Part shown: positions 7,627 through 32,553 of the stretch, in pieces
How the letters are laid out: the number at the start of each line of letters is the position of its first letter
Position numbering within the stretch: position 1 is the stretch's first letter
Assembly (NCBI GenBank): GCA_002304445.1
Contig: NEVA01000007.1
Span: 62,001 to 126,000, forward strand
Length of the DNA: 64,000 nucleotides
Reading direction: 5' to 3'
DNA from: Opitutia bacterium Tous-C4FEB
Lineage (GTDB): Bacteria > Verrucomicrobiota > Verrucomicrobiia > Opitutales > Opitutaceae
Notes under the pieces: model-generated
What the model saw: the letters and a program-made list of their open reading frames with translations, nothing else
Databases searched by the model: none
Told to the model about the DNA's origin: nothing
Program-made: the position numbers and the translations under genes

Positions 7627-9099
7627 TTACTCGTCCGAAAAATCGCCACTCTCTCGGTACTCCTGCAATTTATTGCGTAAGGTCCGAATAGAAATTCCGA
7701 GCAGCTCGACGACTTGCGCGCGGTTCCCGTCTTTGGCTTTCATGGCCGCCAAGATCGCCTGCTTTTCCATCTCCGCGAGCGACTGCAAGACCGGGGCCGA
7801 TTCTGATGCCGCTACGGCGGAGGGCGGAGGTGCCGGCGCGGCGCGGCGCGGCAGGAGTTCCGCGCTTGGGCCGGTCTCCCGCGACACCGGCGGTTGCCAA
7901 TCGGATTCCACGACATCCTCGACCGCACCAGCGGGCAGCTCGATGCCGAGCGCTGCGCCGGAAATCGGGCGGTCGTTTTCGGAGAGAATCACGGCGCGCT
8001 CAATCGTGTTTTGGAGTTCACGCACGTTGCCCGGCCAGCGGTACGAGCGCAGGGCGTGCATCGCCTGCGGCGAGAAGCCCAAAATGCGGATGCCGCTACG
8101 GCGCGCGCTCAGGCGCAGAAACGACTCGGCCAACATCGGAATTTCCTCCCCGCGCTCCCGCAGCGGCGGCACGTGGATCGGAAACACGTTAAGGCGATAA
8201 TACAAATCCGCGCGAAAGCTGCCTTGCTCGACGTAGCGCAGAAGTTCGCGATTGGACGTGGCGAGGATGCGCACGTTGACTTTGATGGGCTTGCTGCCGC
8301 CGACGCGTTCAAACTCGCGCTCTTGTAGGACGCGCAAAAGTTTTGCCTGCAGGTTGGGCGGGATCTCGCTCACTTCGTCGAGCAGGAGCGTGCCACGATT
8401 GGCGAGTTCGAAGCGGCCTTCGCGTTTTTCGGTCGCGCCGGTGAAGGCTCCGCGTTCGTGACCGAATAATTCACTCTCGATCAGTGTCTCGGAGAGCGCC
8501 GCACAGTTGACCTTGATAAAAGGTTCCCGGCGGCGAGAGGAGAGGCGGAAGATCTCGCGGGCGACCATTTCCTTGCCGGAGCCGTGTTCGCCGGTGATGA
8601 GCACGGTGGCCTCGGTGGGCGCGACGCGCTCGACGTGCGAGCGCAGCCGGCGCATCGCGAGACTTCCGCCGACCACGAATTCATCGCCGCCGGCGCCGCG
8701 GTCGTTGAGGTAGCGGTTTACTTTGACGAGTTGGTTGTAAGCGTCGGCTTTCTTAAGCAGGACTTCGATGCGCGACGCAGTGAACGGCTTAACGACATAG
8801 TCAAAAGCCCCCGCGCGCATGCAGGCGACGGCGCTCTCGATCGTACCGGCACCGGTTACCAGCACGACGATCGGCCGGTCCGGTAACGTCATCAGGCGCT
8901 CCAAAAATTGGTGGCCATCGCCGTCCGGCAGCCGCACGTCGAGGAATACGAGGTCGTAGGTTTCCCGCAGAATCAGGCCGTTGGCCGTGGCGAGATCGGG
9001 CGCGCACTCAAACGCCAGATTCGCCCGCGTGCAGATCTCTTCCATCGACTTGGCGATGATCGGGTCGTCATCGACGATAAGTATTCGATCCAAGGGCAC
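7627..9099 (-). CDS. Sigma-54-dependent response regulator (NtrC/FlrC type)
   Basis: 490 residues. The receiver domain (1-125) has an acidic cluster VDDD and phospho-acceptor D54 (FLDVRLPDGDG). The AAA+ sigma-54 activation domain (about 142-375) has Walker A GEHGSGKE (170-177), the sigma-54 contact loop GAFTGA (217-222) and Walker B LLLDE (238-242). A Pro/Ala linker and a C-terminal Fis-type helix-turn-helix (about 450-485, GNRAQVVELLGISIRTLRNK) follow. It activates sigma-54 polymerase at -24/-12 promoters. Four such promoters in this window precede flagellar or glycan genes, which makes this the likely FlrC/FleR-type flagellar activator. A cognate kinase is not adjacent; candidates are at 9705-11966 and 50451-51854. 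Confidence 0.93.
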   Translation of the reverse strand: MPLDRILIVDDDPIIAKSMEEICTRANLAFECAPDLATANGLILRETYDLVFLDVRLPDGDGHQFLERLMTLPDRPIVVLVTGAGTIESAVACMRAGAFDYVVKPFTASRIEVLLKKADAYNQLVKVNRYLNDRGAGGDEFVVGGSLAMRRLRSHVERVAPTEATVLITGEHGSGKEMVAREIFRLSSRRREPFIKVNCAALSETLIESELFGHERGAFTGATEKREGRFELANRGTLLLDEVSEIPPNLQAKLLRVLQEREFERVGGSKPIKVNVRILATSNRELLRYVEQGSFRADLYYRLNVFPIHVPPLRERGEEIPMLAESFLRLSARRSGIRILGFSPQAMHALRSYRWPGNVRELQNTIERAVILSENDRPISGAALGIELPAGAVEDVVESDWQPPVSRETGPSAELLPRRAAPAPPPSAVAASESAPVLQSLAEMEKQAILAAMKAKDGNRAQVVELLGISIRTLRNKLQEYRESGDFSDE

Positions 9100-16968: not shown

Positions 16969-17667
16969 TTATTGTCGGGGCGGGAGGGTTTTCACCAGCA
17001 CTCGCGCGACGTAAGTCACTATTTTGATTGGGCTTATACGGATGCCCGCGAGCGCAGAACTAGACGATAAAAGATGATCTTGGCGCCCCAAACCCTCGCG
17101 AAACATCTGCGCGGTGCCCGCTTCGTCGGCCTGGATCGTCTCGTCAAAGGCCCAAATCGCGCGGTTAGGCGTCAGTTCCATGATGCGGCCGCGCAGGCCG
17201 ATCGTCTGCGAGCCATACGGACTGAAATGTGTCACCTCGAGGAAGGCCACGGCCTCGGCTCCGGTGTGCTCGACGATGCGTGCGAGCAGATCGGGCGGCA
17301 GCGGATACGTGGTGGAAAAGCTCACTCGCCCCGTCCAGCGGAGCAGCTCCGCGCGCGTGACCGCGACAAATTCGGCGCGGTGCGAAGCCTGCAGAGCCGA
17401 AAGCCATACGGGATCGTGAGAGGAGAAATAATCCGCTGGTACATCCGCCAGCAAGGTCGCCACGGGCAAGACCGCCACGCGCTTCACGCCGGCCGGCCAG
17501 GCCTTGGCGGCAAGAATATTTTCCGGCTGATAAGCCGGCGGCGTCCGCCAGCGCTGCACCTCAAATCCGCTGTAAGGGATCGCGGGCCACTGCGCCGCCC
17601 AAGCGCTCGCTCCGCCCGTAGAAAGCAGCGCCAGTCTAAGCCAAAATTTAAAAAAGAGCGCGGTCAT
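16969..17667 (-). CDS. Secreted protein, possibly FlgO/CsgG-like
   Basis: 232 residues with a signal peptide (FFKFWLRLALLSTGGASAWA). The mature protein has the pattern VKRVAVLPVATLLAD followed by LLARIVEHTGAEAVAFLEVT and GLRGRIMELTPNRAIWAFDE. This alternation of 'avlPf', 'l...l..tgad.vv.g.' and a strand describing metabolised or catalysed action resembles the nucleotide-fold-like core of FlgO, LpoB and CsgG-type outer-membrane proteins. No lipobox is visible. The start follows the fliD stop without a gap, so the two are cotranscribed. Likely an envelope protein associated with the flagellum. Confidence 0.55.
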   Translation of the reverse strand: MTALFFKFWLRLALLSTGGASAWAAQWPAIPYSGFEVQRWRTPPAYQPENILAAKAWPAGVKRVAVLPVATLLADVPADYFSSHDPVWLSALQASHRAEFVAVTRAELLRWTGRVSFSTTYPLPPDLLARIVEHTGAEAVAFLEVTHFSPYGSQTIGLRGRIMELTPNRAIWAFDETIQADEAGTAQMFREGLGRQDHLLSSSSALAGIRISPIKIVTYVARVLVKTLPPRQ

Positions 17668-19020
17668 TCACTTATTGGGAAAAGCGTTGGTGAGCTGAGT
17701 TTGCATCTGCTTGAGTTTGGACTGGGCATTTTCCATCGCCATGAACCCCGACTCGAGCTGCGACCGGCGTTGTGCGAGATAGCGATCGAGGGCCGCGATC
17801 TGAGTATCGAGGCCCGTGTTAGCCGTGCCGTACGATTCAATCTTGGTATTGAGCAACCCGCCCGTGCCGGTGGAGCCTGCGTAACTGTCCAGCTTGGTCA
17901 CAAAAGCAGAAGCGAGACCCGTACTACTGGTGTTAAAGAAGTTTACAACGTCGGAGGCATGATCGGAGAGAGCCGCGTCCAACATCGCAGAGTCCTTAAT
18001 CGTGATTTGATCGCTCGAGCTAGAAAAATCGATCCCCAAGGCCGAAAGGTTAGCAACCTCACCCGAACCGGGCGCGCGAAAAGCCGTTGAGCGCAACTCA
18101 CGCAGCCACGCTTGGATTTCACGGTTATCGGCCAAGGGGCCAGCCGTCGTCTTACCCGCTGTCGTGGTGATTTTGGTCTTACTATCGATAAAATCCGCGA
18201 CGGCGTTGTAATTCGAAACAAAGGCTTCGATCTTGGTCTTAAGGTCAGCCGTACTGGAGGCGACCGTGATGTTTTCCGTGCCGACCGAGTCAACTTTGAC
18301 GCTCAACCCCGTGATCCCGTGATCGGTCGAGTCCAACGTATTATTGGCACTGGTAAAATCGAGCCCGTTGACTTTGAACACCGCCGGCGAACCCGTGACG
18401 TTTGTCGTAGGACTCGTAAGACCCAAACTGGTCGCGATTGCAGGATCAGCGGACCCGGCTGCATCTTTGCTAGAAACCGTGATAGCCGTAGCGCCTGTGT
18501 CGCGGTTGGTGAGGACAATCCGGCCGGCCCCACTGGCGGCCGAGGCGCTATAGATGGCGGTGACGCCAGCGTTCGAATTATTAATCGCCGAAATTACACT
18601 CGCGACGGTTTGCCCGGCAGTGATGGCGATATCCGTGCCGTTAATCGTCAACGAACCGGCCGCCGTAGGCGAACTCACTGCGCCGCTCGTCAAACGACTG
18701 GCGGTGGCCTTGCTCACCACTTGGACCTCGTAGTTACCCACGGGCGTTGAATCCGTCACGTCCGCGGTCCAAGAGGGACTGCTCGACTCAAACGTAGCCT
18801 TGCGCCCCGAACTGAGAGTGGGGCTGGAGAGGTCGCTCATTGCCGTACGCAGCGAGGCCAACTTCGTGCCTAAATCCGTGAGCTGCGACTTCTTGGCATC
18901 GTTCTTCGATTTCTCTGATTCCAATCGACGCACCGGGGCACGCTCGAGATCGATCACGCTATCTGTGAACGCTTTCCAGTCAAAACCGGAAGCTAAGCCT
19001 GCAAGTTGGATGGCGGCCAT
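17668..19020 (-). CDS. fliD: Flagellar filament cap protein FliD
   Basis: 450 residues. FliD caps the growing filament and folds exported flagellin. The N-terminus (IQLAGLASGFDWKAFTDSVI) matches the family start (GlaSG.D...iv..Lm). The coiled-coil region (LESEKSKNDAKKSQLTDLGT) and the C-terminal FliD_C domain (SNYNAVADFIDSKTK, then SQLESGFMAMENAQSKLKQM) follow. The C-terminus is the normal QTQLTNAFPNK type. It is the first gene of fliD - FlgO-like - FlgM-like - fliS - fliT-like, with adjoining stop and start codons. No sigma-54 element was found upstream. Confidence 0.95.
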   Translation of the reverse strand: MAAIQLAGLASGFDWKAFTDSVIDLERAPVRRLESEKSKNDAKKSQLTDLGTKLASLRTAMSDLSSPTLSSGRKATFESSSPSWTADVTDSTPVGNYEVQVVSKATASRLTSGAVSSPTAAGSLTINGTDIAITAGQTVASVISAINNSNAGVTAIYSASAASGAGRIVLTNRDTGATAITVSSKDAAGSADPAIATSLGLTSPTTNVTGSPAVFKVNGLDFTSANNTLDSTDHGITGLSVKVDSVGTENITVASSTADLKTKIEAFVSNYNAVADFIDSKTKITTTAGKTTAGPLADNREIQAWLRELRSTAFRAPGSGEVANLSALGIDFSSSSDQITIKDSAMLDAALSDHASDVVNFFNTSSTGLASAFVTKLDSYAGSTGTGGLLNTKIESYGTANTGLDTQIAALDRYLAQRRSQLESGFMAMENAQSKLKQMQTQLTNAFPNK

Positions 19021-19150: not shown

Positions 19151-21574
19151 TCATACTTTCGCCCCCCGATAATTTGCGACCATCTGCCGGTAACAGCCTT
19201 CCAGCTTGCGCGTGAAACCTTCGGCATCACCGAGCACCGATGTTTTCATCCGCGCACCAAGGCTGGTGCGCAGCTGCTGCAGCCGTGCCCGATCCGCGGC
19301 TAGTTTGACCGCGATGGCGATATAGTCCTCGGGCCGCTCCGCGACCAGATCGGCAAGGCCCACGGCATTGAGCAAGCTCACCCCTACCCGCGCGACATGC
19401 GAACTTCCTGCCAAGCTCACGACCGGCACACCGGCGGCCAGCGCTTCACAGGTCGTCGTCGTGCCGTGGTACGGGTAAGAATCCAGCGCGATATCCACCT
19501 CATTGTAGACCGCGAGATGATCCTTGATCTGCGGCTTATGCGGCATGAAGAGCAGTCGCTCTTTGGCAATCCCGGCGCTCGTAAACCGCGTCTCCCACTC
19601 TAGTAGGACTTCGGGATCAAAAAAGGATTTGGCTTTGAGTCGTAAGCGCGCGTCAGGCACACCCTGCAAAATCTTGACCCACAAATCGCACAGCGGCGCA
19701 TTGAACTTCGCGATGTTGTTAAACGAGCCAAAGGTGATGAAGCCGTTGCGCTCCACCGGAGGCGCGTCCGCAAAGGTCTGCGCGTCATGCATCACGGGCG
19801 CATAGCACCAGCCGCAATCCGGAATCCGCATCAGTTTCTCGCAGTGGTGAGCATCGGTCAGGCCCACCGGGTCCGCCCACGCATCCGTGAGTCGATAATC
19901 GATGGTCTTTAGACCGGTCGTGCTCGGATAACCCAAATACGTCGCCTGAATCGGAGCCGGCTTCAGCGCGCACACTTCGAGTCGGTTACCCTGCGTGTGG
20001 CCGGAAAGCTCGACCAAGACATCGAGCTGATCCTCGTAGATGATTTGGGCGGTCTCCGCGGTCGTCTTGTGCGCGACATCGCGCCAAGCGAAGACCTGAC
20101 CCTTGATCGTGGCGCTCACCGCGTCATAGGTGGCCGACGTCGAGTAGGCAAAAATTTCAAACTGCGCTGGATCATGATGCTTGAACACGGCGCCAATAAA
20201 CGCCGTCACCGAGTGTTGCCGCAGATCCGCTGACAGATAGCCCACCCGTAGTTTCGCGCGCTTCGCGTGCGTTTCGGGCCGATGCTTGAAGCGCGAAGGG
20301 AATTCTTTCGAGATTTTCGATCCCCAGGCTAAATGACGCTCCAAGATTTTTGCTGGCGTTGAGCTCGGCGCGAACAGCAGCGTGAAAAGATAATTTCCCC
20401 ACATGGGATCGACACAACCCACATAGTCATATTTGTGCGTGGGATTTTTGCTCACCTCTATTGCGAGCTCGAGCAATAGAATGCCCTCACCCACCCGACC
20501 AGCGTCTTTCAGAAGCTTGGCCTTGTTGATTAGAGCCGGAATGTCGTTAGGACTTTTCACCAAGATGGAATTGAACGCCTCAAGCGCGGGGGACAATATC
20601 CCGAGTTCCAGGCATAGAGCCGCTAAATTACCCAAATAAACCGCATTTTGAGGATCCAACTTCAGGGCCTCGATGTATGCAGCGACGGCGACAGTTCTCT
20701 TGTTAAAGTGCGTGAGGGTCTGCGCCTTGTAAGCATGGATCTTAGCCGTCACCCAACCGCGCTCGATCGCGTTATTAATGGCTCCGATGCAGCCTTGATA
20801 ATCTTTCTTATGGTTAAGGTACAGCGCCTGTTCCTCGTAAAAACAACCCTCGGCAGAATCTGCCGCTATCGCTTGATTCACCCAGTCCAGCGCCCGATCT
20901 AAATCCGCCATCGCAAACCAAGAGCGCGCACCTTCGTAGGACAACCACGCCTCCCCTGGGCTCAGCCGTTTAGCCGAGGCAAAAGTTTCTACGGCTGCTT
21001 TATGCTGCCCATTAGAGGCATAGCATTTACCCAGCAAAAATAAGGCCTCGAGGTTATTGGGCTCAAGGGTCACTGCACGCTTCAGGTGCTTGAGCGCATC
21101 TTTATCGAGGCCCCGCTGCTGCAGCCCTTGCCCGTAGGCCAGTTGAGCCGAGAAAGACGAGGGCGCGAGTGCCACCGCGCGCTCCCACAGCGGCCAGGCA
21201 ACCTCCCCTGCCCCGGCCAACGTGTGAGCCTCAGCTAAGGCCATGAGAGCGGGCGCCGAGTTGGGTTGAAGCGCCACCGCCGCTTGCGCCCGCTCCACCG
21301 CGAGCTCGAATTGAGCTGCCCGGGAGTAGGCTCGGCTCAAATCGCACAAAATGTTGAAATCACCGGGAGATAACGAAAGAGCCGTGCTTAAAAAATCGAT
21401 CGCCGTTTCCGCATCAATACCCGGGAGACGACCCAAAAAGTGCCAGGCCCAAGCGGTTTCCGGGGCTTGAGCGAGCACCGCCTTGCAGGATTCTTCAACC
21501 TCACCAAAACGCCCGTCCGCGAAGGCGCGCTGCACCTCGGCGGCAGACTGAGCGTCAATGAGGAGAGGTTCCAT
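19151..21574 (-). CDS. TPR O-GlcNAc-transferase-type glycosyltransferase (GT41)
   Basis: 807 residues. The N-terminal half is a run of about ten tetratricopeptide repeats (e.g. AVTLEPNNLEALFLLGKCYA). The C-terminal half (about 430-800) is the SPINDLY/OGT catalytic domain: LRVGYLSADLRQHSVTAF (the HxxH-like N-lobe entry), PAPIQATYLGYPSTTGLKTI, FGSFNNIAKFNAPLCDLW, and DSYPYHGTTTTCEALAAGVP, the sugar-nucleotide binding loop. These enzymes attach sugars to Ser/Thr of proteins. Location directly after fliD and its own sigma-54-type promoter make flagellin the likely acceptor. The ATG at 21574 is used; the TTG at 21580 would lie upstream of the predicted transcription start. The ATG is at +2, so the mRNA is predicted leaderless. 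Confidence 0.9.
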   Translation of the reverse strand: MEPLLIDAQSAAEVQRAFADGRFGEVEESCKAVLAQAPETAWAWHFLGRLPGIDAETAIDFLSTALSLSPGDFNILCDLSRAYSRAAQFELAVERAQAAVALQPNSAPALMALAEAHTLAGAGEVAWPLWERAVALAPSSFSAQLAYGQGLQQRGLDKDALKHLKRAVTLEPNNLEALFLLGKCYASNGQHKAAVETFASAKRLSPGEAWLSYEGARSWFAMADLDRALDWVNQAIAADSAEGCFYEEQALYLNHKKDYQGCIGAINNAIERGWVTAKIHAYKAQTLTHFNKRTVAVAAYIEALKLDPQNAVYLGNLAALCLELGILSPALEAFNSILVKSPNDIPALINKAKLLKDAGRVGEGILLLELAIEVSKNPTHKYDYVGCVDPMWGNYLFTLLFAPSSTPAKILERHLAWGSKISKEFPSRFKHRPETHAKRAKLRVGYLSADLRQHSVTAFIGAVFKHHDPAQFEIFAYSTSATYDAVSATIKGQVFAWRDVAHKTTAETAQIIYEDQLDVLVELSGHTQGNRLEVCALKPAPIQATYLGYPSTTGLKTIDYRLTDAWADPVGLTDAHHCEKLMRIPDCGWCYAPVMHDAQTFADAPPVERNGFITFGSFNNIAKFNAPLCDLWVKILQGVPDARLRLKAKSFFDPEVLLEWETRFTSAGIAKERLLFMPHKPQIKDHLAVYNEVDIALDSYPYHGTTTTCEALAAGVPVVSLAGSSHVARVGVSLLNAVGLADLVAERPEDYIAIAVKLAADRARLQQLRTSLGARMKTSVLGDAEGFTRKLEGCYRQMVANYRGAKV

Positions 21575-21584
21575 ACGCAACGGT

Positions 21585-21602
21585 AAGCAATCCGTAAGCC
21601 AA
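21585..21602 (-). promoter_or_regulatory. Sigma-54-type promoter of the OGT-type gene
   Basis: The minus strand reads TTGGCTTACGGATTGCTT with GG-N10-GC. Predicted start near 21575, one base before the ATG. It shares TGGCTTA and TGCTTA with the promoter of the sugar operon (36846-36863). Confidence 0.7.
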
Positions 21603-22091: not shown

Positions 22092-23228
22092 TCACACCGG
22101 CACCGCGATGATGTTGGTGTAGTCGCCGCCCTTGAAGGCGTGGGCGGTTTCGTAGGACAACTCTTTTAAAAACGCCTCGAAGCCGACTTGGTTGTGGTTC
22201 TGTACCTCGATAAAAATCACCGGGCGGCATTCCCGAATAAGGCGCTTGGCCCCGGCGAGCACACCGAGTTCCATACCTTCCACGTCGATCTTGAGAAAGT
22301 TCACTTTGGTCAGAGTGTCGTCGAGAGTGATGATCTGGATAGGTTTGCGACTTCCCGCCTCTGCCTCTGCAACCAAAGCATTATTCAGATCGTCGTGCGG
22401 CGTGAAAAATAGTTCGCCGGGAGTTTCGCCCACGCCTTTTTCGTAAAGCTGCAATCGCGTATTCGGCGCGGGGTTAAGCGCCAGATTCTCCTTAAGAACC
22501 GCAAGGCAATCGGGGTTAGGCTCAAACAAGTGGAGCTCGACGGGAGCAAAAGCCTGCAGGAAGAAAATCGCGTGATTACCTAAGTTAGTTCCCACATCAG
22601 CGACAATGCCGCCGCGACGGACCACGCCGGTTAGCGCGGCCAGCTCTTCTTCCTCATAAAAACGCTCGGCCATATGAACGAAATCCACTGTAAGCGACCG
22701 GCCCGAAAGAGCGAAGCGCGCCTGTGTTATCCCTTGCTTAACCGTGATCACGCGCTGACCAGAGAGTAAGCGAAACGCGAGTGCACGCCCCACGAACGCC
22801 CCACGATTATTATCGGGCTGTAAAGAATGACCCGTGGAATAAGTCATGAACGCGTCCAGAAACCGTCCGCCAGTGAGGCAAATCATCCCCAGCTGGTTCC
22901 AAACTGCGGGCTGCTGGCTCGAGAGGGTGAGCGCGCGGCGCAGAGTCGTAATTGCGTTGTCCGTCTCTCCGGCGATCCACTGCAGCTGCGCCAGTTTGGA
23001 GAACAATTCGACAGACGGAGACACCATCTCGGAAACTTTCATTACCAAGCGAGCGGCACATTTGAGTTGAAGGTGCTCTCCCATCTTCTCGCTTAAAGCC
23101 ATCAATGTCTCGGGCTGCGGCGGCATGAAGGATGCAATCAACGCATCCGCCTCGGCCACGGCAGCGGCGGCCTGCCCGTTTAGCAATGCATGCTCGATAC
23201 GCTCCAGTTTTTGTGAATTTGACATCAA
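22092..23228 (-). CDS. TPR + FkbM-type methyltransferase
   Basis: 378 residues. An N-terminal helical/TPR part (about 1-150, e.g. DNAITTLRRALTLSSQQPAV) precedes a SAM-dependent FkbM-type methyltransferase domain (about 190-375). The domain has motif I ADVGTNLGNHAIFFLQ, acidic ribose-binding HLFEPNPDCLAVLKENLALN, and LKIDVEGMELGVLAGAKRLI, the FkbM hallmark (iDvEG.E). FkbM enzymes O-methylate sugars and other hydroxyls. Last gene of the sugar operon. The TPR half suggests interaction with a protein or with the TPR-bearing OGT-type enzyme. Probably methylates the flagellin glycan; inferred. Confidence 0.82.
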   Translation of the reverse strand: MMSNSQKLERIEHALLNGQAAAAVAEADALIASFMPPQPETLMALSEKMGEHLQLKCAARLVMKVSEMVSPSVELFSKLAQLQWIAGETDNAITTLRRALTLSSQQPAVWNQLGMICLTGGRFLDAFMTYSTGHSLQPDNNRGAFVGRALAFRLLSGQRVITVKQGITQARFALSGRSLTVDFVHMAERFYEEEELAALTGVVRRGGIVADVGTNLGNHAIFFLQAFAPVELHLFEPNPDCLAVLKENLALNPAPNTRLQLYEKGVGETPGELFFTPHDDLNNALVAEAEAGSRKPIQIITLDDTLTKVNFLKIDVEGMELGVLAGAKRLIRECRPVIFIEVQNHNQVGFEAFLKELSYETAHAFKGGDYTNIIAVPV

Positions 23229-23266
23229 TTAGCGCGAGGCGACGGGTAAAGATGAATCCGATAGCC

Positions 23267-23887
23267 TCAAAACCCAGCTGGTAATCCCGCCTTTAAATCA
23301 CAGAAAAGGTAGTCATTATGCGTCCCATCCCAGTGGGGGTTATTGCGGAGATTGAAATCGGTAATATTACAAACCAGCGCATAACGTTGAGAGAGTAAAA
23401 ACGTCACAACCTCATAGAAGGACGGCGTATAAACTTCGGCCAAAATGAAGCGTGGCCTGAAGCGCGCGTAGTCCAAGCTGCGAAGCACGTTCAATTCATA
23501 GTTTTCCACGTCAATCGACATGAGATCGACCGTCTTATCGGCAAAATGCTTGGCGAAAACCTTTGTCAGTGACATCGCCCGCACCGTCACCGCCGCGGAA
23601 CGGCTGAGGCGAGTCCCATTGACGCTCGCCATTGGGTTGCCGTCGAAGTCACCGACGAGCATATCCACATCTTGGTCAGTAAGCGCACAGTTAAGCACGG
23701 TGCTATTGGGGCGATTGACTTTGCACGCGTTGAACGCACGCATGGAGGGCTCCACGAGCACGCCGGTCCAACCGAGTTCTTTTTCAAGCCGGTAGGTGTA
23801 GGACTGGAAAATACCATCATTGGCGCCGGCTTCAAAGAAGACGCCGCCCTGCTTGGGGATGATTTGGATGAGTTTTTCGAAGTTCAT
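23267..23887 (-). CDS. FkbM-type methyltransferase
   Basis: 206 residues. Motif I is variant (GGVFFEAGANDGIFQSYTYR), with GxNDG where SAM binds. The acidic residue lies in VLVEPSMRAFNACKVNRPNS, and the FkbM signature is VDLMSIDVENYELNVLRSLD. The protein is shorter than the other two FkbM-type enzymes of this cluster and has no extra domain. It sits 38 bp upstream of the TPR-FkbM gene and 39 bp after the glycosyltransferase gene. Predicted SAM-dependent O-methyltransferase on a sugar. Confidence 0.82.
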   Translation of the reverse strand: MNFEKLIQIIPKQGGVFFEAGANDGIFQSYTYRLEKELGWTGVLVEPSMRAFNACKVNRPNSTVLNCALTDQDVDMLVGDFDGNPMASVNGTRLSRSAAVTVRAMSLTKVFAKHFADKTVDLMSIDVENYELNVLRSLDYARFRPRFILAEVYTPSFYEVVTFLLSQRYALVCNITDFNLRNNPHWDGTHNDYLFCDLKAGLPAGF

Positions 23888-23926
23888 GGGAGCAATCGCA
23901 AGAGAGAGGGTGAAAGGGACGGAAAA

Positions 23927-25099
23927 TTAGGCGACAAATTCATGATACCGGTCGAGGAACGAAGGCGAGAAACGGCTGGCGGTGACGCGCCACATGCCTA
24001 CGGGATCAAGCTTGCGAATAGTGGCTTGGGCGGGATGCTCGGCTTGAGGGTATGGCCGCAGCGCCTCGCGCAGACCCCGCTCAATATCCTCGGCATCTGG
24101 GGGGACATCCTCGTAAACAGCCGAATTAAACAGCGCGGGCCCGAGCACTGGGTCGTAACTGGAGACGAACGCGGCCGCCTGGCCGCTGAAAGACAACATC
24201 TCGCCGGTAGCGCGCATTTTGAGCCGACTCGGAACGACCAAGGTTTTCTCCGAAGGATGCGGAATGAGGGTCCAGTTGCCGATCTGACAGCACGGAATGC
24301 CCAGCGTGTCGCAAAATAAACCGGCGCCCGAGGGGCTCACCAAACCAACTGCGGCGTGGGCGAAGAGATAAAAATCGTTTTTCGGGCTGGCGAACGGTGA
24401 GTGAGCATAATCCCAGACGTTGAACTCCATGAACACTTCAGGAATGGGCTCACGACCGCCAAGCACGATCTCGTAACCGTTATCGCGGAGAAACTCCAGG
24501 GCGGGCTTATACACTTCGCCGGGGAAAAGGCGCGCAGTGCCGTTTCCCGTTACCGACTTGATCTGAATGACCGCGTATTTTCTAGCTTTGAGAAGGGATA
24601 TAAACGCAGGATCACCGGGGATTTTGTCCAGCGCTTCGCGCAGCGGGCTTTGCCCGGCGGTTGCCCGCCAAGCTTCATGCATTCGAATCGTCTGCGCCGT
24701 GAACTCCTCGCTGCGCAACGCCCATCCAAAATTGAGCGGGGAAAGGTCGCCGATCATGCGTGGCGATTTGTCCGGTAGCGCCAGTTTCCAATGGGCTTGG
24801 CCAATGTCGAAAACTAACTCTGGATAGAACAGCTGGATCTCACGCAAGATCGTGCTGGCGTTGGCATTGATGATGGTTTGCACACCGTGGCGCTTGAGGA
24901 TTTCCACCAGCATCAAGGCCATGTCGGTGGGCGGCAGGATGACGACGACCGTATGTGTCAGAAAAACCCGATGGCTACGCACTTGGCGCAGCAGCAAATC
25001 GGTTTCCAGCAGCATATGCCCCGGCGAGATGTAAAAAAACATGCCGCCGGCGACCAGGCAGTTGGCCTTGCGGAGGTTGGCAACGAAGTTACTCAGCAT
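23927..25099 (-). CDS. Glycosyltransferase of the TIGR04372 kind
   Basis: 390 residues. The sequence pattern, with YAVIQIKSVTGNGTARLFPG in the middle, LRDNGYEIVLGGREPIPEVF, then NDFYLFAHAAVGLVSPSGAG and TLGIPCCQIGNW, resembles the putative glycosyltransferase family TIGR04372 found in O-antigen and glycan clusters, including a SxSG-like nucleotide-sugar loop. It is placed between two FkbM-type methyltransferase genes in the sugar operon. The family name is from memory of the pattern, not a search; 'glycosyltransferase-like' is the safe reading. Confidence 0.65.
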   Translation of the reverse strand: MLSNFVANLRKANCLVAGGMFFYISPGHMLLETDLLLRQVRSHRVFLTHTVVVILPPTDMALMLVEILKRHGVQTIINANASTILREIQLFYPELVFDIGQAHWKLALPDKSPRMIGDLSPLNFGWALRSEEFTAQTIRMHEAWRATAGQSPLREALDKIPGDPAFISLLKARKYAVIQIKSVTGNGTARLFPGEVYKPALEFLRDNGYEIVLGGREPIPEVFMEFNVWDYAHSPFASPKNDFYLFAHAAVGLVSPSGAGLFCDTLGIPCCQIGNWTLIPHPSEKTLVVPSRLKMRATGEMLSFSGQAAAFVSSYDPVLGPALFNSAVYEDVPPDAEDIERGLREALRPYPQAEHPAQATIRKLDPVGMWRVTASRFSPSFLDRYHEFVA

Positions 25100-25133
25100 G
25101 GCCGTAAAAACGTAAGCGCGAAGGGCGCGGGCA

Positions 25134-25997
25134 TTACCAGTTCATCGCCAAATGGCGGGTTATGAACAGGCTGCCTCCCTTGTAAGAGATTGGCATATCG
25201 GCGAGCGAGGCGACGCGGCCCCAGCCGAGTTTCTGGGCAAATGCATTTACGCCAAGCGATGACAGGTGGTTAAAAATCGCCTCGGCGTTTTCGGGCGAAC
25301 CGATCTCCACCATCATGTCGGTTTTGGCCCAGTCGGCGGCGGTGGTAGCGAGCAGAATGGTGCGCTCCTGGCCCTCGGCGTCCATCTTAACGAAATCAAC
25401 CGTGGGCATGATGGCGGCGATAGATTCGACGCGGACGGGGAATTTTTCGAGTTCACCGTAGGCGCTGCTCTTGGCCCCCGAGAGGTGGCTGCTGGTGGTG
25501 TTGCCAAGGACGCGCACGAATTCTAGGGTGCCGGATTTGTCCGACACGGCGGCTTCCACGAGTTCGACGGTACGGCTTTGGTTGAGGGCGAGATTGCGCT
25601 TCAAAAGCGCAGCATGCTTCGGGTCGGGCTCGTAGGCGCGGACCTGCCACCCGCACTTGCCCATCAGGATGCTGTGCAGGCCGAGATTGGCGCCGATGTC
25701 GGCGGCGCGGCGGTAGCGGAGGCGATTGGCCCAGTAGAAGGAGAATATGATCAGTTCGTCCAAGCCGAACAGGTCGAGGGAATCGACCGCTCCCATCCGG
25801 TAGTACGGCAGCTCAATTTCCCCGAATGAGCCGAAAGTTTCGCGGGCGCCTTCGGTTTGGGTGAACCGGCAGGTTTTGACGGCCTCGGCCACGGCCTTTT
25901 CCCTGAGGGCATAGGCCGCGGAGGTGCGGGCGTGCTGCGGGGCGATGGACGGCAGCTCTTCCAGGATTTCGTTGAGCGTGGAGACGACGGTGATCAT
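25134..25997 (-). CDS. FkbM-type methyltransferase
   Basis: 287 residues from the ATG at 25997; a TTG at 26027 would overlap the upstream stop and add ten unrelated residues. Motif I is RAADIGANLGLHSILMGKCG, the acidic loop is QVRAYEPDPKHAALLKRNLA, and the FkbM hallmark is VDFVKMDAEGQERTILLAT, with Ala in place of the usual Val/Ile. The third FkbM-type methyltransferase of the cluster, giving three potential O-methylation steps. It follows the thiamine enzyme gene by 23 bp. Confidence 0.85.
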   Translation of the reverse strand: MITVVSTLNEILEELPSIAPQHARTSAAYALREKAVAEAVKTCRFTQTEGARETFGSFGEIELPYYRMGAVDSLDLFGLDELIIFSFYWANRLRYRRAADIGANLGLHSILMGKCGWQVRAYEPDPKHAALLKRNLALNQSRTVELVEAAVSDKSGTLEFVRVLGNTTSSHLSGAKSSAYGELEKFPVRVESIAAIMPTVDFVKMDAEGQERTILLATTAADWAKTDMMVEIGSPENAEAIFNHLSSLGVNAFAQKLGWGRVASLADMPISYKGGSLFITRHLAMNW

Positions 25998-26020
25998 AAA
26001 TGGGTGGTGCTTTCGTAGGT

Positions 26021-27847
26021 TTACCAACCGGGGGTGGCTTGTTGGGTGGCGACCGGGGCGCGGTCGGCCTGGCTGAAGGGTTTGACGATCATTTCGTCCT
26101 GCACGCGGGTCGCCGAGAGCAGGGGCGACTGGTTTTCCAGGGCCGAACCGAATTTGAGGACCGGATAGAGTTTTTGGTCGGGGTTGATCTCGACGTTGAC
26201 GAAGACCGGTCCCGGCTGGGCGTAAACCTCGGCCAGAACTGCGGCGATCGGTTTCTGACCGTCGATGGTGTAGGTGAGCAGACCCAAAGCTTCCGCGACA
26301 CGCGAGAAGTGGGTCGGGAACGCCAGGCCGGACGCCGGATCAACGCCCACGTAGCGGCCGTTGAGCCAGGTCTCGAGCGTCTGCTTTTGGATGCCGTGGC
26401 TGTGGTTATTGAAGAGCAAAATCTTTACGGGCAGCCGGTGTTTGGCGACCGTCGCCAGCTCGGCCAGGCAAAGCATCAGGCCGCCGTCGCCCGTGATGCA
26501 GGTCAACGAGGGCCGCGGATCGAACAGGGCCGCGCCGATCGCCGCGGGCAGGGCATAGCCCATGGGCGTGTTGTTCCAGGCGGAGTGGATCCGTTGGCCA
26601 CGTTTCGGGACGAGTCCGTTGCACGTCCAGGTCAGGTTGCCGCCGGTATCGACGAAGAGCAGGGCATTTTCCGGCAATACGCCGGATAGTTTGCGGACGA
26701 AATCATAGGCGTCCACGCACGCCTGTCCGGCGCTGGCGCAGGGGGAAGCATCCGGTGGGAACGCCTGTTGCCAGTGCTGGATCTGCGCCTTCCATCCGGA
26801 CCAGCCGGGCGCCTCCCATGTGGCCAGTTGCGGTTTCAGGGCGGCCAAGAATTCACCCAGCCGAGCCTTGATCCGCACTTTGATCTCGATGCCGCACCCG
26901 TCAAATTTACTCATCTCATGCTCGTCGGTATCGACCATGGCGATGGTCGCAGTCCGGGCGAAGGAGCAGAGGATGCCTCCGGTGAGGTTTTGCGACAGCC
27001 GGGTGCCGAGGGCGATCACGAGATCCGCATTCTGGACGGTGAAGTTGCCGGCGCGCGGGCCGTAGACGCCAAACGGACCGACGCGGAGGGGATGATCGGA
27101 CTCCAGCAGGTCGATGGCCGCCCACGATAGCAGGACGGGGATGCCGAGGCGATCGACGCATTCCTGCAGGATGGACCAGACGACCGGGGTCTTAAGGCCG
27201 CCACCCAGTACAAGTACCGGCCGCTCCGCAGCGCGGATTTTTTTCAGGAGCTCCCCTATTTGCCCGGCCAATACTGCAAGAGAATCAACGCAGGGCAGCG
27301 GGATGAATCCACGCAGTTCGGTGGGCTCGATCTCAGCGCGCTGGAGATCATCGGGGACATCGATCAGCACCGGTCCGGGGCGGCCCTCAAACGCGATGTG
27401 ATACGCCTTCTCCAATTGATAGCGGATGTCCTCCGCGGTGGAAAGTTGCACGGCGTATTTTGTGACCGGGGAAAAAATCGCGACCACATCGGTCTCCTGG
27501 AAGCCGACCTGACGGACCTTCCGGTCTCCCTTAAGGCGGTGCGTCGCCACCTGGCCTGTCAGCATCAGGGTCGGCACGGAGTCATAGTAGGAACAGCAGG
27601 TCCCCGTCAGCAGGTTGGTGGCTCCCGGGCCGCTCGTCGTCACGGCCACACCTAGGCGGCCGGACGCCCGCGCATACCCATCGGCGGCCATGGCCGCGCA
27701 CTGTTCGTGCGTCATCGAGATGATGTGCATCCTGGGATGCCGGTCGATGGAATCGAACATGTGCACGGCGGCGCCGCCCGACATGCCAAAGGCGTGCGTC
27801 ACGCCGCGCTCGGCCAGAAAATTTGCGATGTAGTCGGTGAGTTTCAT
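26021..27847 (-). CDS. Thiamine-diphosphate enzyme, acetolactate-synthase type
   Basis: 608 residues from the ATG at 27847. The N-terminal PYR domain has the catalytic Glu48 (SMTHEQCAAMAADGYAR). The central domain is about 200-340. The C-terminal PP domain has the ThDP motif starting GDGGLMLCLAELATVA and ending ILLFNNHSHG. In primary metabolism this family makes acetolactate. In sugar clusters (YerE of yersiniose synthesis) a homologue adds a two-carbon acetyl unit from pyruvate to a keto-sugar. The gene overlaps the SDR gene by ATGA and lies in a nucleotide-sugar operon without ilvN or ilvC, favouring a C2 transfer to sugar over isoleucine synthesis. Substrate is inferred. Confidence 0.85.
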   Translation of the reverse strand: MKLTDYIANFLAERGVTHAFGMSGGAAVHMFDSIDRHPRMHIISMTHEQCAAMAADGYARASGRLGVAVTTSGPGATNLLTGTCCSYYDSVPTLMLTGQVATHRLKGDRKVRQVGFQETDVVAIFSPVTKYAVQLSTAEDIRYQLEKAYHIAFEGRPGPVLIDVPDDLQRAEIEPTELRGFIPLPCVDSLAVLAGQIGELLKKIRAAERPVLVLGGGLKTPVVWSILQECVDRLGIPVLLSWAAIDLLESDHPLRVGPFGVYGPRAGNFTVQNADLVIALGTRLSQNLTGGILCSFARTATIAMVDTDEHEMSKFDGCGIEIKVRIKARLGEFLAALKPQLATWEAPGWSGWKAQIQHWQQAFPPDASPCASAGQACVDAYDFVRKLSGVLPENALLFVDTGGNLTWTCNGLVPKRGQRIHSAWNNTPMGYALPAAIGAALFDPRPSLTCITGDGGLMLCLAELATVAKHRLPVKILLFNNHSHGIQKQTLETWLNGRYVGVDPASGLAFPTHFSRVAEALGLLTYTIDGQKPIAAVLAEVYAQPGPVFVNVEINPDQKLYPVLKFGSALENQSPLLSATRVQDEMIVKPFSQADRAPVATQQATPGW

Positions 27848-28692
27848 AAACGGGGGGATTCGGCTCCGTTGTTGCCGTGCCGGCGCAGCTTGAATTTGTG
27901 CGGGTCCGCGCGCAGCAAGGCGGCCAGGTTTGTGTCGGTTTCCGACCAATGGTCATGGACGACGGAAAAATTACGCCCACCGGTCACCGCGCGGCCCTGG
28001 GTCACGCCCCAGCGGATCATGGCGGCGATGTCCCGGTGGTCGGTGCCCGGTTCCTGCCGGTCGATAAACTGCCTGGTCTTGTCGTAGTTGATGCCGGCGC
28101 GCGCACCGGCCGCCATAGTCTGCTCGTGGATTTTGGTGCGGACCCAGCCGGTGCCGACAATGAAAACGTTGAGGTCGGGATTTTCGTCATCGAGCAGCTC
28201 GCACATCTTGATGAGGGCAATCTTGCCCAGGCAATAGGCCGAGTAGGAACGAAAGGGATTGTTCGTGCCGCCGCCGGCAAAAAAGACGACATGGCACTGG
28301 CGCTCCGCCCGGCGGTGCGGATGCGCGGCGTGCAAGGCGCGGAGTTGGGCCAAGGAGTTCGTCTCCACCGAACTGGCCCAGTCTTCGAAATCGTTGGCGA
28401 AAAATTCGCCGACCGGCGTCAGCTGGCCGACGCAGGAAATGAAGATGTCCCACCGGAAATCCTGCGCCTGCAGGAACCCGCTGATCTTCGCGGCGCAGTC
28501 ATCTGAGGTCACATCGCAGCGGAGTCCGGCGAAATTCTTTTGTTCGCGCAGGCTGGCCGGCAGGCTTTGACGGTAGGTTCCGGCGACGCGCAGCCCGCGT
28601 TGCAGGTAGTCGAGGGCGAGCTGCTCGCCGATATCGCTCGAAACCGAAAGAATGAACACGGCGCCGAGTTCTGATGGAGGGAAGAAGGACAT
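27844..28692 (-). CDS. Short-chain dehydrogenase/reductase
   Basis: 282 residues starting at the ATG at 28692, which shares bases with the ADH stop (TGATG). The SDR fold is recognisable: N-terminal strand and turn VFILSVSSDIGEQLALDYLQ (a variant of TGxxxGIG), the catalytic YCLGK (YxxxK) after SYSA, and ISCVGQLTPVG in the NAG position. The C-terminal part includes TGWVRTKIHEQT. It overlaps the thiamine enzyme by 4 bp (ATGA), so the two are translationally coupled; in the yersiniose pathway an SDR reduces the carbonyl made by the C2-transfer enzyme, and the same pairing is proposed here. Confidence 0.82.
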   Translation of the reverse strand: MSFFPPSELGAVFILSVSSDIGEQLALDYLQRGLRVAGTYRQSLPASLREQKNFAGLRCDVTSDDCAAKISGFLQAQDFRWDIFISCVGQLTPVGEFFANDFEDWASSVETNSLAQLRALHAAHPHRRAERQCHVVFFAGGGTNNPFRSYSAYCLGKIALIKMCELLDDENPDLNVFIVGTGWVRTKIHEQTMAAGARAGINYDKTRQFIDRQEPGTDHRDIAAMIRWGVTQGRAVTGGRNFSVVHDHWSETDTNLAALLRADPHKFKLRRHGNNGAESPRL

Positions 28693-29720
28693 CAGAAGCA
28701 GAGCATGGTGTGAATGGCGTCGCCGCTGCGCATAGTGGCAATGAGGGCGTTGATCTCGGCGAGCGAACCGCGATGGGAGATCATCCCGCGCGGATCGAAG
28801 CGGCTGTCGCGGATCATTCGCAAGTAGCGCGGAATATCGAGGTGCGGCTCGCTGGAACCGCCTTCGGTGCCGGTGAGCACTTTGCCGTGGTGCAGCGGCA
28901 GCGTGTTCAGGCTGAATTGCTGGTCGTGGCGCATGACACCAACGAGCACGAGGCGGCCTTTCGGGCCGGTTACTTTCCAGGCCTCGCCAATGACGGCGGC
29001 GTTGCCGGTCACGTCGAACACGGCGTCGGCCGGACCGCCGAGGATCGATTGCACAGCTTCGGCGAGGTTTTGGCGGCGGGTGTTGATCGTTTGGGTCGCG
29101 CCATATTCGCGGGCTTTCGCCAGCTTGTGGTCGTGGACATCCACGGCGATCACGGGATGGGCGCCGGCGAGGTACGCGCCGAGGACGGTGCCGAGGCCGA
29201 TGCCACCGACGCCGATCACGACGACGGCTTCTCCAATCGTCACGCGGGCGTCGCGGGTCACGGCGCCGAAGCCGGTCGTGAGCGTATCGGCGAGCAGCGC
29301 GGCGACCTCGAAGTCGGTGCCGACGGGGACCTTGGTCACACGATTCTCGGAGACGACGGTGATGTTCTGAAAAGTGGTGATATTGCCGGCGTTGACCGTC
29401 TGCGAACCGAGACGGTACTTCGACGGTGCCGCCTGGATGCCGGCGCCGGAGCGCCAGTGTAGGACAACATGGTCGCCCGGGCAGACATGGGTGACCTCGG
29501 GACCGACCTCGACGACGATACCGCCGCCCTCGTGGCCGAGGAGATGAGGCAGATATTTGTCGGGACCCTTCACGCCCTCGATCTCGCCAAGCTGCGAACC
29601 GCAGATGCGGCTGGCCTTCACCTGCACGAGCACCTGGCCATAGCCGAGCGCGGGCAGCTCCACCTCGTCGATGAGGAGGGGCTTGCGCTGCTCGATGAGA
29701 ATAGCGGCGGGGGTTTTCAT
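28692..29720 (-). CDS. Zinc-type alcohol dehydrogenase (MDR family)
   Basis: 342 residues. The catalytic-domain landmarks are RICGSQLGEI (zinc-ligand Cys), LLGHEGGGIVVEVG (His-Glu) and PGDHVVLHW. The Rossmann domain has VVVIGVGGIGLGTVLGAYLA and the acidic NAD-binding residue in VIAVDVHDHK. The usual four structural-zinc cysteines (CxxCxxCxxxxxxxC) are absent; that stretch reads RSGAGIQAAPSKYRLG. The C-terminus ends in HTMLCF as in class III-like enzymes. Likely oxidises or reduces a sugar or polyol hydroxyl in the cluster's pathway. It lies between a methyltransferase and the SDR in the same operon. Confidence 0.84.
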   Translation of the reverse strand: MKTPAAILIEQRKPLLIDEVELPALGYGQVLVQVKASRICGSQLGEIEGVKGPDKYLPHLLGHEGGGIVVEVGPEVTHVCPGDHVVLHWRSGAGIQAAPSKYRLGSQTVNAGNITTFQNITVVSENRVTKVPVGTDFEVAALLADTLTTGFGAVTRDARVTIGEAVVVIGVGGIGLGTVLGAYLAGAHPVIAVDVHDHKLAKAREYGATQTINTRRQNLAEAVQSILGGPADAVFDVTGNAAVIGEAWKVTGPKGRLVLVGVMRHDQQFSLNTLPLHHGKVLTGTEGGSSEPHLDIPRYLRMIRDSRFDPRGMISHRGSLAEINALIATMRSGDAIHTMLCF

Positions 29721-29760
29721 GCGGTGAGAGGTGCGAAGCGCGCGGGCGTGGGCGCAAACT

Positions 29761-29783
29761 CACGGGCAGGATGCCCGTGCCAC
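29761..29783 (+). repeat. Palindromic fragment 'cacgggcaggatgcccgtg'
   Basis: Short palindrome between the methyltransferase and ADH genes, identical in type to the palindromic end of the repeat family at 9358, 11967 and 14828. Being inside an operon, it may form an RNA hairpin. Confidence 0.5.
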
Positions 29784-29796
29784 TTGATCGCGGTCT

Positions 29797-30474
29797 TCAT
29801 GGGATGAACCACCAGTAGTCGCCGGTGTACCCAACTTCGGTGAAGAGGCGGACCCAGTCTTCGACACTCATATATGTCTCGGCGGTGAGAATCCAGTCGA
29901 ACAAGCGTTGGCGTTCTTCTTCGGTGCGCCACGCGTCGACGGTGATAAATTTGCGGGCTCGGCTGACGCGTTCGATCTCGGTGAGCGCCTGTTTGCAGAG
30001 GGAATATTCGAGATTGTGAATGCTGTTAATCGAGATGACCAAGTCGAAGGACGCGTCTGCGTAGGGGAGCTGTTCCGCCGAGCCGATGTCGATCAAAGGG
30101 CCGGTCTTACCGTGGGCGTGCTGTTTGGCGTAGGCGGAAACATCGAGGCCGCGCACGGTCGCGCCGGGGAGGACTTGGAGGAGATCGTGGAGGAGAAAGC
30201 CTTTGCCCGCGCCGACGTCGAGGATGCGCGCATCGGGCGGAAGTTGGTAGTGCTCGACGAGGCGTTGGGCGACGGGGAGCCAGCGGCCGTCGTAGCGGTA
30301 GCCACCGTAACCGTGGCGGCGTTCGCCGTCGAAGAAGTCGCGGCCGAACTGTTTGGCGAGGGCGCGGTCGGCGGCGGTTTTGGCGGCGGCGCGGGCCTTG
30401 GGGTCGCGCTTCGTCTGCGGGAGACGGTCGAGTAGATTGATCTCGCGGCCGGAGGTGAGGGTGAAAGTGGCCAT
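29797..30474 (-). CDS. SAM-dependent methyltransferase
   Basis: 225 residues with a class I methyltransferase core: motif I ARILDVGAGKGFLLHDLLQV, the acidic turn VRGLDVSAYAK, motif II EQLPYADASFDLVISINSIH and a downstream LTEIERVSR helix. The N-terminus is rich in Arg and Ala. The pattern RRHGYGGYRYDGRW before motif I resembles sugar or C-methyltransferases that act on nucleotide sugars, but no catalytic residue can be singled out. It lies between the E1 beta gene (10 bp) and the ADH gene in the sugar operon. Confidence 0.75.
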   Translation of the reverse strand: MATFTLTSGREINLLDRLPQTKRDPKARAAAKTAADRALAKQFGRDFFDGERRHGYGGYRYDGRWLPVAQRLVEHYQLPPDARILDVGAGKGFLLHDLLQVLPGATVRGLDVSAYAKQHAHGKTGPLIDIGSAEQLPYADASFDLVISINSIHNLEYSLCKQALTEIERVSRARKFITVDAWRTEEERQRLFDWILTAETYMSVEDWVRLFTEVGYTGDYWWFIP

Positions 30475-30484
30475 GGTGGTTTAT

Positions 30485-31552
30485 TCAGAACGGGCCGGTG
30501 AAGGCGGGGTTCGGTTTGTCCAACTCGGCGCCAGCGGGGACGAGGAGGTCGTCGTCGTGCGGCGGACGTTGGAGGGTGGTGCGGACGGCGGCGACGATGT
30601 GGCCGGCGCGGGGATAAAATTCGGCGGAGAGTGTGGGGCTCGTGGGCGTCGGGCACTCGGGGAAACACACGCGGCGCGGCGCGGCCTTGAGCGAGCCGAA
30701 GGCGCTTTCGCTGGCGATGGCGATGATTTCGGCGGCCATGCCGGCGGTGCTGTGGCCGGTATCAGCGACGACCAGACGGCCGGTTTTAGCGACTGAGGCG
30801 AGGAGGAGGGATTGATCGAGCGGACGGAGACTGCGGACGTCGATCACCTCGGCGTCGATGCCATGCTCGGCAAGTTTCTCCGCGGCTTCGAGGGCTTCGA
30901 GGACCATGTAGGAAAACGCGACGATGGTGACGTCGCTCCCCGCACGAGCGAGACGGGCGGGGCCGATGGGAACGGTGTAGTGGCCGGCGGGGACTTCGCC
31001 TTTGATGTGGTGGAGCCAGCGGTGTTCGATGAAGACGACGGGGTTATCATCCTCGATGGCGGCGATGAGGAGACCCTTGGCGTCGTGCGGCGTGGTCGGC
31101 ATCACGACCTTGAGGCCGGGGATGTGGGCGAACCACGAGTGGAGGCATTGGGAGTGTTGCGGACCCTGGCCCCAGCCGCGACCCAGGATCATGCGGAAGA
31201 CGACGGGCATCTTCATCGTGCCACCAAACATGTAGCTCCACTTGGCGGCCTGCGTGCAGATCGGGTCCATCGAGAGCATCGCGAAATCGAGACGCTGATG
31301 GTTGAGTACGGGACGGAGGCCGTTCAGGGCGGCGCCGAGCATGACGCCTGACATGCCGTTTTCGGCGCAAGGCATGTCCATGACGCGGTCGGCGCCGAAC
31401 TGCTTTTGAAGATCGGTGGTGGTGCCGAAAAAACCCTTGGGGTCCGGCACGCCGAGACCCATGAGGAGGACACGCGGATCGCGTTCGAGCGCGACAGCAA
31501 AGCCCTCGCGGATGGCGGCGGCGTAGGTGAGTTCGCGGGACGCAGGTTTCAT
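30485..31552 (-). CDS. Thiamine-dependent E1 dehydrogenase, beta subunit-like
   Basis: 355 residues, transketolase-type Pyr and C-terminal domains. The N-terminal TYAAAIREGFAVALERDP and MDMPCAENGMSGVMLGAALN (catalytic Glu64) are the E1 beta landmarks; the C-terminal domain has VIDVRSLRPLDQSLLLASVA and a strand GRLVVADTGHSTAG. It overlaps the alpha-subunit gene by 4 bp. There is no E2 or E3 gene and no lipoyl domain nearby, so this is unlikely to be a respiratory ketoacid dehydrogenase complex. Pairs of this type also occur in branched-sugar clusters (AviB1/AviB2 of avilamycin), where they move a two-carbon unit. Confidence 0.85.
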   Translation of the reverse strand: MKPASRELTYAAAIREGFAVALERDPRVLLMGLGVPDPKGFFGTTTDLQKQFGADRVMDMPCAENGMSGVMLGAALNGLRPVLNHQRLDFAMLSMDPICTQAAKWSYMFGGTMKMPVVFRMILGRGWGQGPQHSQCLHSWFAHIPGLKVVMPTTPHDAKGLLIAAIEDDNPVVFIEHRWLHHIKGEVPAGHYTVPIGPARLARAGSDVTIVAFSYMVLEALEAAEKLAEHGIDAEVIDVRSLRPLDQSLLLASVAKTGRLVVADTGHSTAGMAAEIIAIASESAFGSLKAAPRRVCFPECPTPTSPTLSAEFYPRAGHIVAAVRTTLQRPPHDDDLLVPAGAELDKPNPAFTGPF

Positions 31553-32550
31553 GAGGCGGCGTAAACGTGGTTCATGAGCGATGCGCCGGCGGGGAACGGC
31601 GCGCGTTGGGCGGCGGCGAAGGCGTCGGAGATTTCGGTTTCGACGCGGGCCTTGAATTGCTCGTGACGAAGGACGTCGAATTCGCCGGAAGCCTTGAGCC
31701 GACGCTCGAAGTTTTTGATGGGATCGCGTTCGCGCCAGGCGAGGTATTCGGCCTCGGTGCGGTAACCGATGTGGTTGTCGAAACCCGCGCCGCAGTGTTC
31801 GCGCCAGCGGTAGGTTTTGAGTTCGAGGAAGACGGGACCTTGGCCCGAGCGCGCGTGGGCGGCGGCGGCGCGGGCGAGTGCGTAGACGGCGAGAGGATCA
31901 TTGCCATCGCCCTGATGCGAGACGACGCCGTGGCCGGCGGCGAGTTGCCAGACCTCGCGGTGGGCGGGTTGGCGGACGCTCATCGGCGAGTAGACGGAGT
32001 AGAGATTATTTTCGCAGACGAAGACGATGGGGAGTTGGTGCAACGAGGCGAAGTTGACGCTCTCGTGAAATACGCCCTCTTCGGTCGCGGCCTCACCGAG
32101 AAACGCGACGGTGACGCGGTCGCGCTTGAGCTGGCGGTCGGCGAAGGCGAGCCCGGTGGCGATGGGAATGGTGCTGGCGACGATCGGCACCGCGCCGACG
32201 AAACCAGCTTTGAGATCAACGAGGTGCATCGAGCCGCCGCGACCCTGACAGCAGCCGGTGGCTTTGCCGTAAATCTCGGCGATCATCGCGGGGAGATCGC
32301 CGCCCTTGCCAAGGTAATGCGCGTGGGAACGGTGACCGCTCATCGCGAGATCGTCGGGCCGCAGCGCGGCGCAGACGCCGGCGGAGGCGGCTTCTTGGCC
32401 GATAGAAAGATGGACCGGGCAACGCATCTGCTGCTCGGGGTAGTGCGCGGCGATGGCCTCCTCGACCATGCGGATGCGCACCATGCTTTCTAGCAGGCGC
32501 GCGGAGATTCCGGCGGAAGCGGCGACGGGATTTTCGGCGGTGGCGAGCAT
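31549..32550 (-). CDS. Thiamine-dependent E1 dehydrogenase, alpha subunit-like
   Basis: 333 residues, length normal for E1 alpha. ThDP/Mg region: the usual GDG is GEA here (FLGEAATEEGVFHESVNFAS), ending IVFVCENNLYSVY. The phosphorylation-loop region (YRWREHCGAGFD) is recognisable. The N-terminus has CPVHLSIGQEAASAGVCAAL and SGHRSHAHYLGKGGD, which matches ketoacid dehydrogenase alpha subunits. It ends 4 bp inside the beta gene. The epimerase gene stops 4 bp upstream. The Asp-to-Glu change in the metal motif keeps an acidic ligand and is probably tolerated. Confidence 0.85.
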   Translation of the reverse strand: MLATAENPVAASAGISARLLESMVRIRMVEEAIAAHYPEQQMRCPVHLSIGQEAASAGVCAALRPDDLAMSGHRSHAHYLGKGGDLPAMIAEIYGKATGCCQGRGGSMHLVDLKAGFVGAVPIVASTIPIATGLAFADRQLKRDRVTVAFLGEAATEEGVFHESVNFASLHQLPIVFVCENNLYSVYSPMSVRQPAHREVWQLAAGHGVVSHQGDGNDPLAVYALARAAAAHARSGQGPVFLELKTYRWREHCGAGFDNHIGYRTEAEYLAWRERDPIKNFERRLKASGEFDVLRHEQFKARVETEISDAFAAAQRAPFPAGASLMNHVYAAS

Positions 32551-32553
32551 GAC

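Follow-up and report, generated by a model that had tools for sequence, protein, structure and literature searches.

In the 64,000-nucleotide stretch of DNA analysed here (the window), a gene for a glycosyltransferase of family GT41 lies beside fliD, which raises the question of which protein this enzyme modifies and with which sugar. Its context supports the view that the GT41 protein is probably a flagellin O-glycosyltransferase, and we infer its activity, its acceptor and the identity of its sugar as set out below.

The GT41 protein and its active site

The GT41 gene and the flagellar genes that bear on its function are the following:

16969–17667, minus strand: ORF downstream of fliD; no Pfam match, homologue after fliD in other genera
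17668–19020, minus strand: fliD (filament cap); Pfam FliD_C and FliD_N
19151–21574, minus strand: GT41 glycosyltransferase; N-terminal TPRs (approximately residues 15–390) and catalytic GT41 part (approximately 424–800)
37431–40448, minus strand: two-domain GT-B/GT4 glycosyltransferase, 1005 aa; adjoins the flagellins
40786–41580, minus strand: flagellin A
41966–42766, minus strand: flagellin B; aligns with flagellins A and C
43338–44156, minus strand: flagellin C

The GT41 ORF begins with ATG, encodes 807 aa and is located upstream of fliD, with 130 bp separating it from the fliD start at 19020. In a Pfam search, the protein matched PF13844 (Glyco_transf_41; 179.9 bits, E 8e-53, cut-off 25) and several TPR families, the repeats that mark members of the OGT/SPINDLY group. 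This was in agreement with an earlier note on this DNA, which had described TPRs joined to a GT41 catalytic domain at 130 bp from fliD; the measured gap and the two FliD domains of the neighbouring gene bear out the latter point. The gene at 19151–21574 is the sole PF13844 match in the 3.76-Mb assembly. We infer a GT-B fold for the 807-aa protein by homology; an AlphaFold model computed from two sequences contained helical hairpins at low confidence (pLDDT 42.8, below 40 in the catalytic half).

When the catalytic half was compared with solved structures, the highest score was obtained for AtSPY (290 bits), followed by TtOGT (231), human OGT (∼150), XcOGT (122) and HMW1C types (30–32). Residues H454, S455, N619, K623, H686, Y702 and T706 align with SPY H495, S496, N661, K665, H728, Y744 and T748 (SPY numbers counted by hand along the printed alignment), and all seven mapped SPY active-site residues are retained. 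In the structure alignment TtOGT carries Met at the Lys position (K623/K665). As described for SPY, K665 is essential, S496, Y744 and T748 are important, and N661 and H728 are dispensable by mutation (PMC9715652). Arabidopsis SPINDLY is thus the closest solved relative, with the seven mapped residues in common, but it is a plant protein O-fucosyltransferase with other targets (PMC9715652).

The candidate acceptors have Ser/Thr-rich centres, as the earlier note had pointed out: Ser and Thr account for 30, 24 and 32% of residues 141–190 in the three flagellins, compared with a mean of 12.6% in 43 ORFs of at least 200 aa. The flagellin/fliD region contains glycosyltransferase and sugar genes, the composition of a flagellin glycosylation island.

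Sigma-54-type sites before GT41 and flagellar genes

Two sites and one regulator are relevant to the expression of these genes:

21586–21601, minus strand: sigma-54-type −24/−12 site TGGCTTACGGATTGCT, 12 nt before the GT41 ATG; kept in orthologue L033
36847–36862, minus strand: sigma-54-type site, 17 nt before the SIS gene ATG
7627–9099, minus strand: NtrC-type sigma-54 activator (receiver, AAA+, Fis HTH)

The GT41 site (21601–21586, minus strand) has the GG-N10-GC spacing and 9 of 12 consensus letters. A strict GG-N10-GC scan of the window returned 37 sites with at least 9 of 12 consensus letters, against 34 expected; since this is close to chance, the site by itself proves nothing, and only its position and conservation were used. 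Among the 48 window genes listed, a site lies exactly 12 nt before the ATG of GT41, flgB and flgF, and 17 nt before that of the SIS gene. The number of genes expected to have a site 10–18 nt before ATG was 0.12 (47 genes), and the probability of at least four, 8e-6, is descriptive, as the genes and the 10–18 nt range were picked after a first look. The GT41 orthologue of G010 (locus L033; 88% identical) keeps the site 14 nt before ATG, compared with 12 nt in the window. The same geometry was observed for flgB, which is present in 36 of the 57 genomes searched: in the 30 flgB loci fetched, the site scored at least 9 in every case and was 12–17 nt before ATG in 29, the exception (L090) having no ATG at the aligned start.

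A wider survey covered 30 loci that were picked for GT41 (28 around GT41 relatives) and contained 21 sites with the ATG of a frame of at least 100 aa within 40 nt. All 10 of those at 12–16 nt belonged to GT41, GT4 or SIS genes; the other 11 included one GT41 and two flagellins. A site with a score of at least 8 at 10–18 nt was found for 7 of 54 GT41 frames versus 7 of 853 unassigned frames (p 4e-6). Neither the window's flagellin and fliD genes nor 11 flagellin and 4 fliD frames of the relatives had a site with a score of at least 8 at GT41-like spacing. The assembly encodes rpoN, so that a −24/−12 site at promoter position, the sigma factor and an NtrC-type activator, the elements of a sigma-54 flagellar regulon, are all present. 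The sigma-54-type promoter that had been assigned to GT41 is therefore upheld by its flgB/flgF-like geometry and its conservation, the number of sites in the window being near chance.

Sigma-54 promoters usually start transcription at a distance that would here correspond to the ATG or a position within ∼6 nt of it. The site is so near the ATG that a wrong GT41 start codon was suspected at first; the orthologue, however, keeps the ATG and a similar spacing, and flgB has the same geometry. For these reasons a leaderless or nearly leaderless mRNA is preferred, and the flgB geometry in 29 of 30 loci (L065–L094) suggests that leaderless sigma-54 mRNAs may be the rule in the order. Transcription is predicted to start at or just before the ATG for the sites at 2718–2733, 21586–21601, 36847–36862 and 60053–60068. 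A Shine-Dalgarno-like motif was seen in 4 of the 31 window genes examined and was missing from 27; the four are the three flagellins (40786–44156) and an HDOD gene.

The sugar operon and the proposed donor

Upstream of GT41 there is a compact row of same-strand sugar, methyltransferase, ThDP and glycosyltransferase genes (22092–36851):

22092–23225, minus strand: TPR and FkbM-type methyltransferase
23267–23887, minus strand: FkbM-type methyltransferase
23927–25099, minus strand: TIGR04372-type glycosyltransferase (46.3 bits, cut-off 45)
25134–26027, minus strand: FkbM-type methyltransferase
26021–27847, minus strand: ThDP enzyme of the acetolactate-synthase/YerE class
27844–28671, minus strand: short-chain dehydrogenase (start estimated)
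28692–29720, minus strand: zinc-type alcohol dehydrogenase family
29797–30474, minus strand: SAM methyltransferase
30485–31552, minus strand: E1-beta-like ThDP subunit
31549–32550, minus strand: E1-alpha-like ThDP subunit
32554–33498, minus strand: NDP-sugar epimerase/reductase family
33510–35135, minus strand: HldE-like fusion whose nucleotidyltransferase precedes the PfkB heptose kinase (reversed order)
35146–36336, minus strand: SDR resembling NDP-sugar 4,6-dehydratases (Arg in place of Lys, Tyr retained; the actual start is probably more internal)
36162–36830, minus strand: GmhA-like sedoheptulose-7-phosphate isomerase (SIS)

The domain order of the HldE-like protein is the reverse of that in the HldE model. 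Full-length HldE-like genes were observed in seven genomes (that of the window and six others), five of them with GT41. The best solved relatives of the ThDP enzyme at 26021–27847 are 8rph (E 5e-106) and 5ahk (7e-94), which we take to be JanthE and PpYerE, ahead of other acetolactate synthases. The motifs of dTDP-glucose 4,6-dehydratase are YxxxK and a TDE triad; in the SDR these are YAASR and TPE in all four sequences (Tyr and Glu kept), and owing to the Arg and the TPE the enzyme is named dehydratase-like only. YerE-like and alpha-ketoacid-dehydrogenase-type ThDP enzymes are reported to branch keto sugars, and the operon encodes one putative member of each class, although the products described for the known enzymes are LPS sugars or antibiotics (PMC12247030, PMC4753412).

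The combination of heptose-type genes with two kinds of ThDP enzyme in the neighbourhood of GT41 suggests a C-branched heptose donor, which would most likely be supplied by this operon. In such a pathway, sedoheptulose-7-phosphate would be converted to NDP-heptose by the SIS isomerase and the HldE-like fusion. The dehydratase-like enzyme would then introduce a 4-keto group and a ThDP enzyme the C-branch, with reduction and methylation to follow. The glycosyltransferases at 23927 and 37431 would extend the glycan or add further sugars.

Parts of the cassette accompany GT41 in other genomes. In G010, a member of the same genus with the only close GT41 orthologue, fliD and GT41 are adjacent as in the window, and the SIS, dehydratase, HldE and epimerase genes are directly on the other side, in divergent orientation. 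The complete genome G031, from a different genus, has a 34-kb region (2018471–2052043) with three GT41s, the sugar cassette, two flagellins, fliD and the post-fliD ORF; the cassette proteins are 54% (SIS), 73% (dehydratase), 65% (HldE), 35% (ThDP enzyme), 69% (ADH), 74% (MT), 74% (E1 beta), 70% (E1 alpha) and 74% (epimerase) identical to those of the window. A short contig of G026 carries part of the cassette.

It is possible, though not the reading we favour, that the product of the operon is a sugar for a surface polysaccharide with no link to flagellin, and that the donor of GT41 is a common one, for example GDP-fucose or UDP-GlcNAc. The HldE-like gene is found in two genomes that lack GT41 (G029 and G033) and apart from GT41 in G024, and GDP-fucose could be compatible with the SPY-like active site (PMC9715652). 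Against this, the cassette is located beside GT41 in G010 and between the GT41s and flagellin/fliD in G031, and its first gene, like GT41, has a sigma-54-type site near the ATG. For GlcNAc in particular, the Tyr at position 702 argues against such a donor, following the argument given in PMC9715652.

Distribution in relatives and the probable acceptor

The GT41 protein would probably function as a cytoplasmic SPINDLY-type protein O-glycosyltransferase, working like FlmG of Caulobacter. Expressed alongside the flagellum from its sigma-54 promoter, with transcription starting at the ATG, it would hold new flagellin (or another filament protein) in the TPR superhelix, and the GT41 part would transfer one sugar from an NDP-sugar to Ser/Thr before export.

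In the 57 genomes searched, GT41 was found in 22 and FliD in 25: both in 16, GT41 only in 6, FliD only in 9 and neither in 26 (Fisher p 8.5e-4). Either flgB or fliD was present in 19 of 22 GT41-positive and 18 of 35 GT41-negative genomes (p 0.01). These counts were tallied by hand, and the p values overstate independence as the genomes are related. GT41 and fliD were on one contig, 0.8–25 kb apart, in 10 of the 16 genomes with both; in the remaining six they were either on separate contigs or, as in G019, distant from each other. Six genus-mates (G002–G005, G008 and G009) with flgB 89–95% identical gave no GT41 match; G009 is 96% complete, and a G002 contig stops inside fliD, so these absences may reflect assembly loss or true variability. 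In many genomes of the family (L034–L062), 2–4 GT41 genes are clustered, and a second type of GT41, only ∼24% identical, is often among them.

An enzyme merely encoded in the flagellar cluster could act on another target, namely FliD or another exported or cytoplasmic protein. GT41 abuts fliD, and not the flagellins, in the window and in G010, and three of the 22 GT41-positive genomes (G013, G044 and G049) had neither flgB nor fliD among their matches, which indicates that the GT41 family is not exclusively flagellar. However, GT41 genes are near flagellins in five genomes (G016, G020, G024, G031 and G035), and the sigma-54 site links GT41 to the flagellum, so that we consider a different target unlikely.

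Slightly more improbable again is that flagellin is glycosylated by the 1005-aa GT4 or the TIGR04372 glycosyltransferase, with GT41 as an extender or accessory enzyme. The GT4 gene adjoins the flagellins in the window, in two loci (L039 and L048) its relatives are preceded by equally spaced sigma-54 sites, and in L041 a relative is beside flagellins. In contrast, GT41 enzymes of known activity (OGT, SPY) attach sugar to protein, whereas the usual substrates of GT4 enzymes are sugars or lipids. A Maf/sialic-type system was rejected, with no match in the genome itself to NeuB or to PF01973. The latter family is named MptE-like and gave matches in archaeal controls only; it presumably also covers Maf, so that for Maf this negative result is a weak one.

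The assignment of GT41 as flagellin O-glycosyltransferase, proposed in the earlier note, thus fits the active site, the promoter geometry and the recurrent synteny, with the acceptor and the activity remaining predictions. The accompanying claim of novelty is half right, being weakened by two precedents (PMC7591256, PMC4875605). FlmG of Caulobacter crescentus is a tested flagellin transferase which, compared by description, is likewise a soluble protein with N-terminal TPRs and a C-terminal GT-B transferase that O-glycosylates flagellin; unlike the present system, in which the genome gave no NeuB match, it uses pseudaminic acid (PMC7591256). SPINDLY-type GT41s are also predicted in fourteen or fifteen types of enterobacterial flagellin islands, where COG3914-type GT41s are found in the fliC–fliD region, with FkbM methyltransferases in some; there, most of the GT41s also carry methyltransferase domains, and neither 'heptose' nor 'acetolactate' appears in the main text of that report (PMC4875605). 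The TibC-family autotransporter heptosyltransferases put heptose on protein, but their acceptor is different and they are likened to GT41 by function only (PMC4358343). A literature search, a weak test with subscription papers mostly outside its scope, returned nothing joining SPINDLY, heptose and flagellin, nothing on flagellin glycosylation in the Opitutus group, and nothing joining flagellin, acetolactate synthase and a branched heptose glycan.

The general idea of GT41 flagellin glycosylation is known and the sugar would be new; the sugar operon, which the earlier note does not bring up for GT41, is the newer and more unusual part of the locus. Only tentatively do we propose an undescribed glycan class, in which flagella of these Opitutus relatives would carry a C-branched sugar derived from heptose (made with the reversed HldE-like fusion and YerE-like and E1-type ThDP enzymes), transferred to flagellin by a SPINDLY-type enzyme and expressed from leaderless sigma-54 mRNAs. 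If this is true, a bacterial SPINDLY relative gains a defined acceptor, flagellin, and an unusual candidate donor encoded next door, the donor choice of GT41 becomes testable with one operon, and flagellin glycosylation is extended to the Opitutus group. In another part of the window, two copies of a 124-nt repeat (46703–46826 and 49034–49157; 94% identical) flank a Fic-domain gene (47439–48926).
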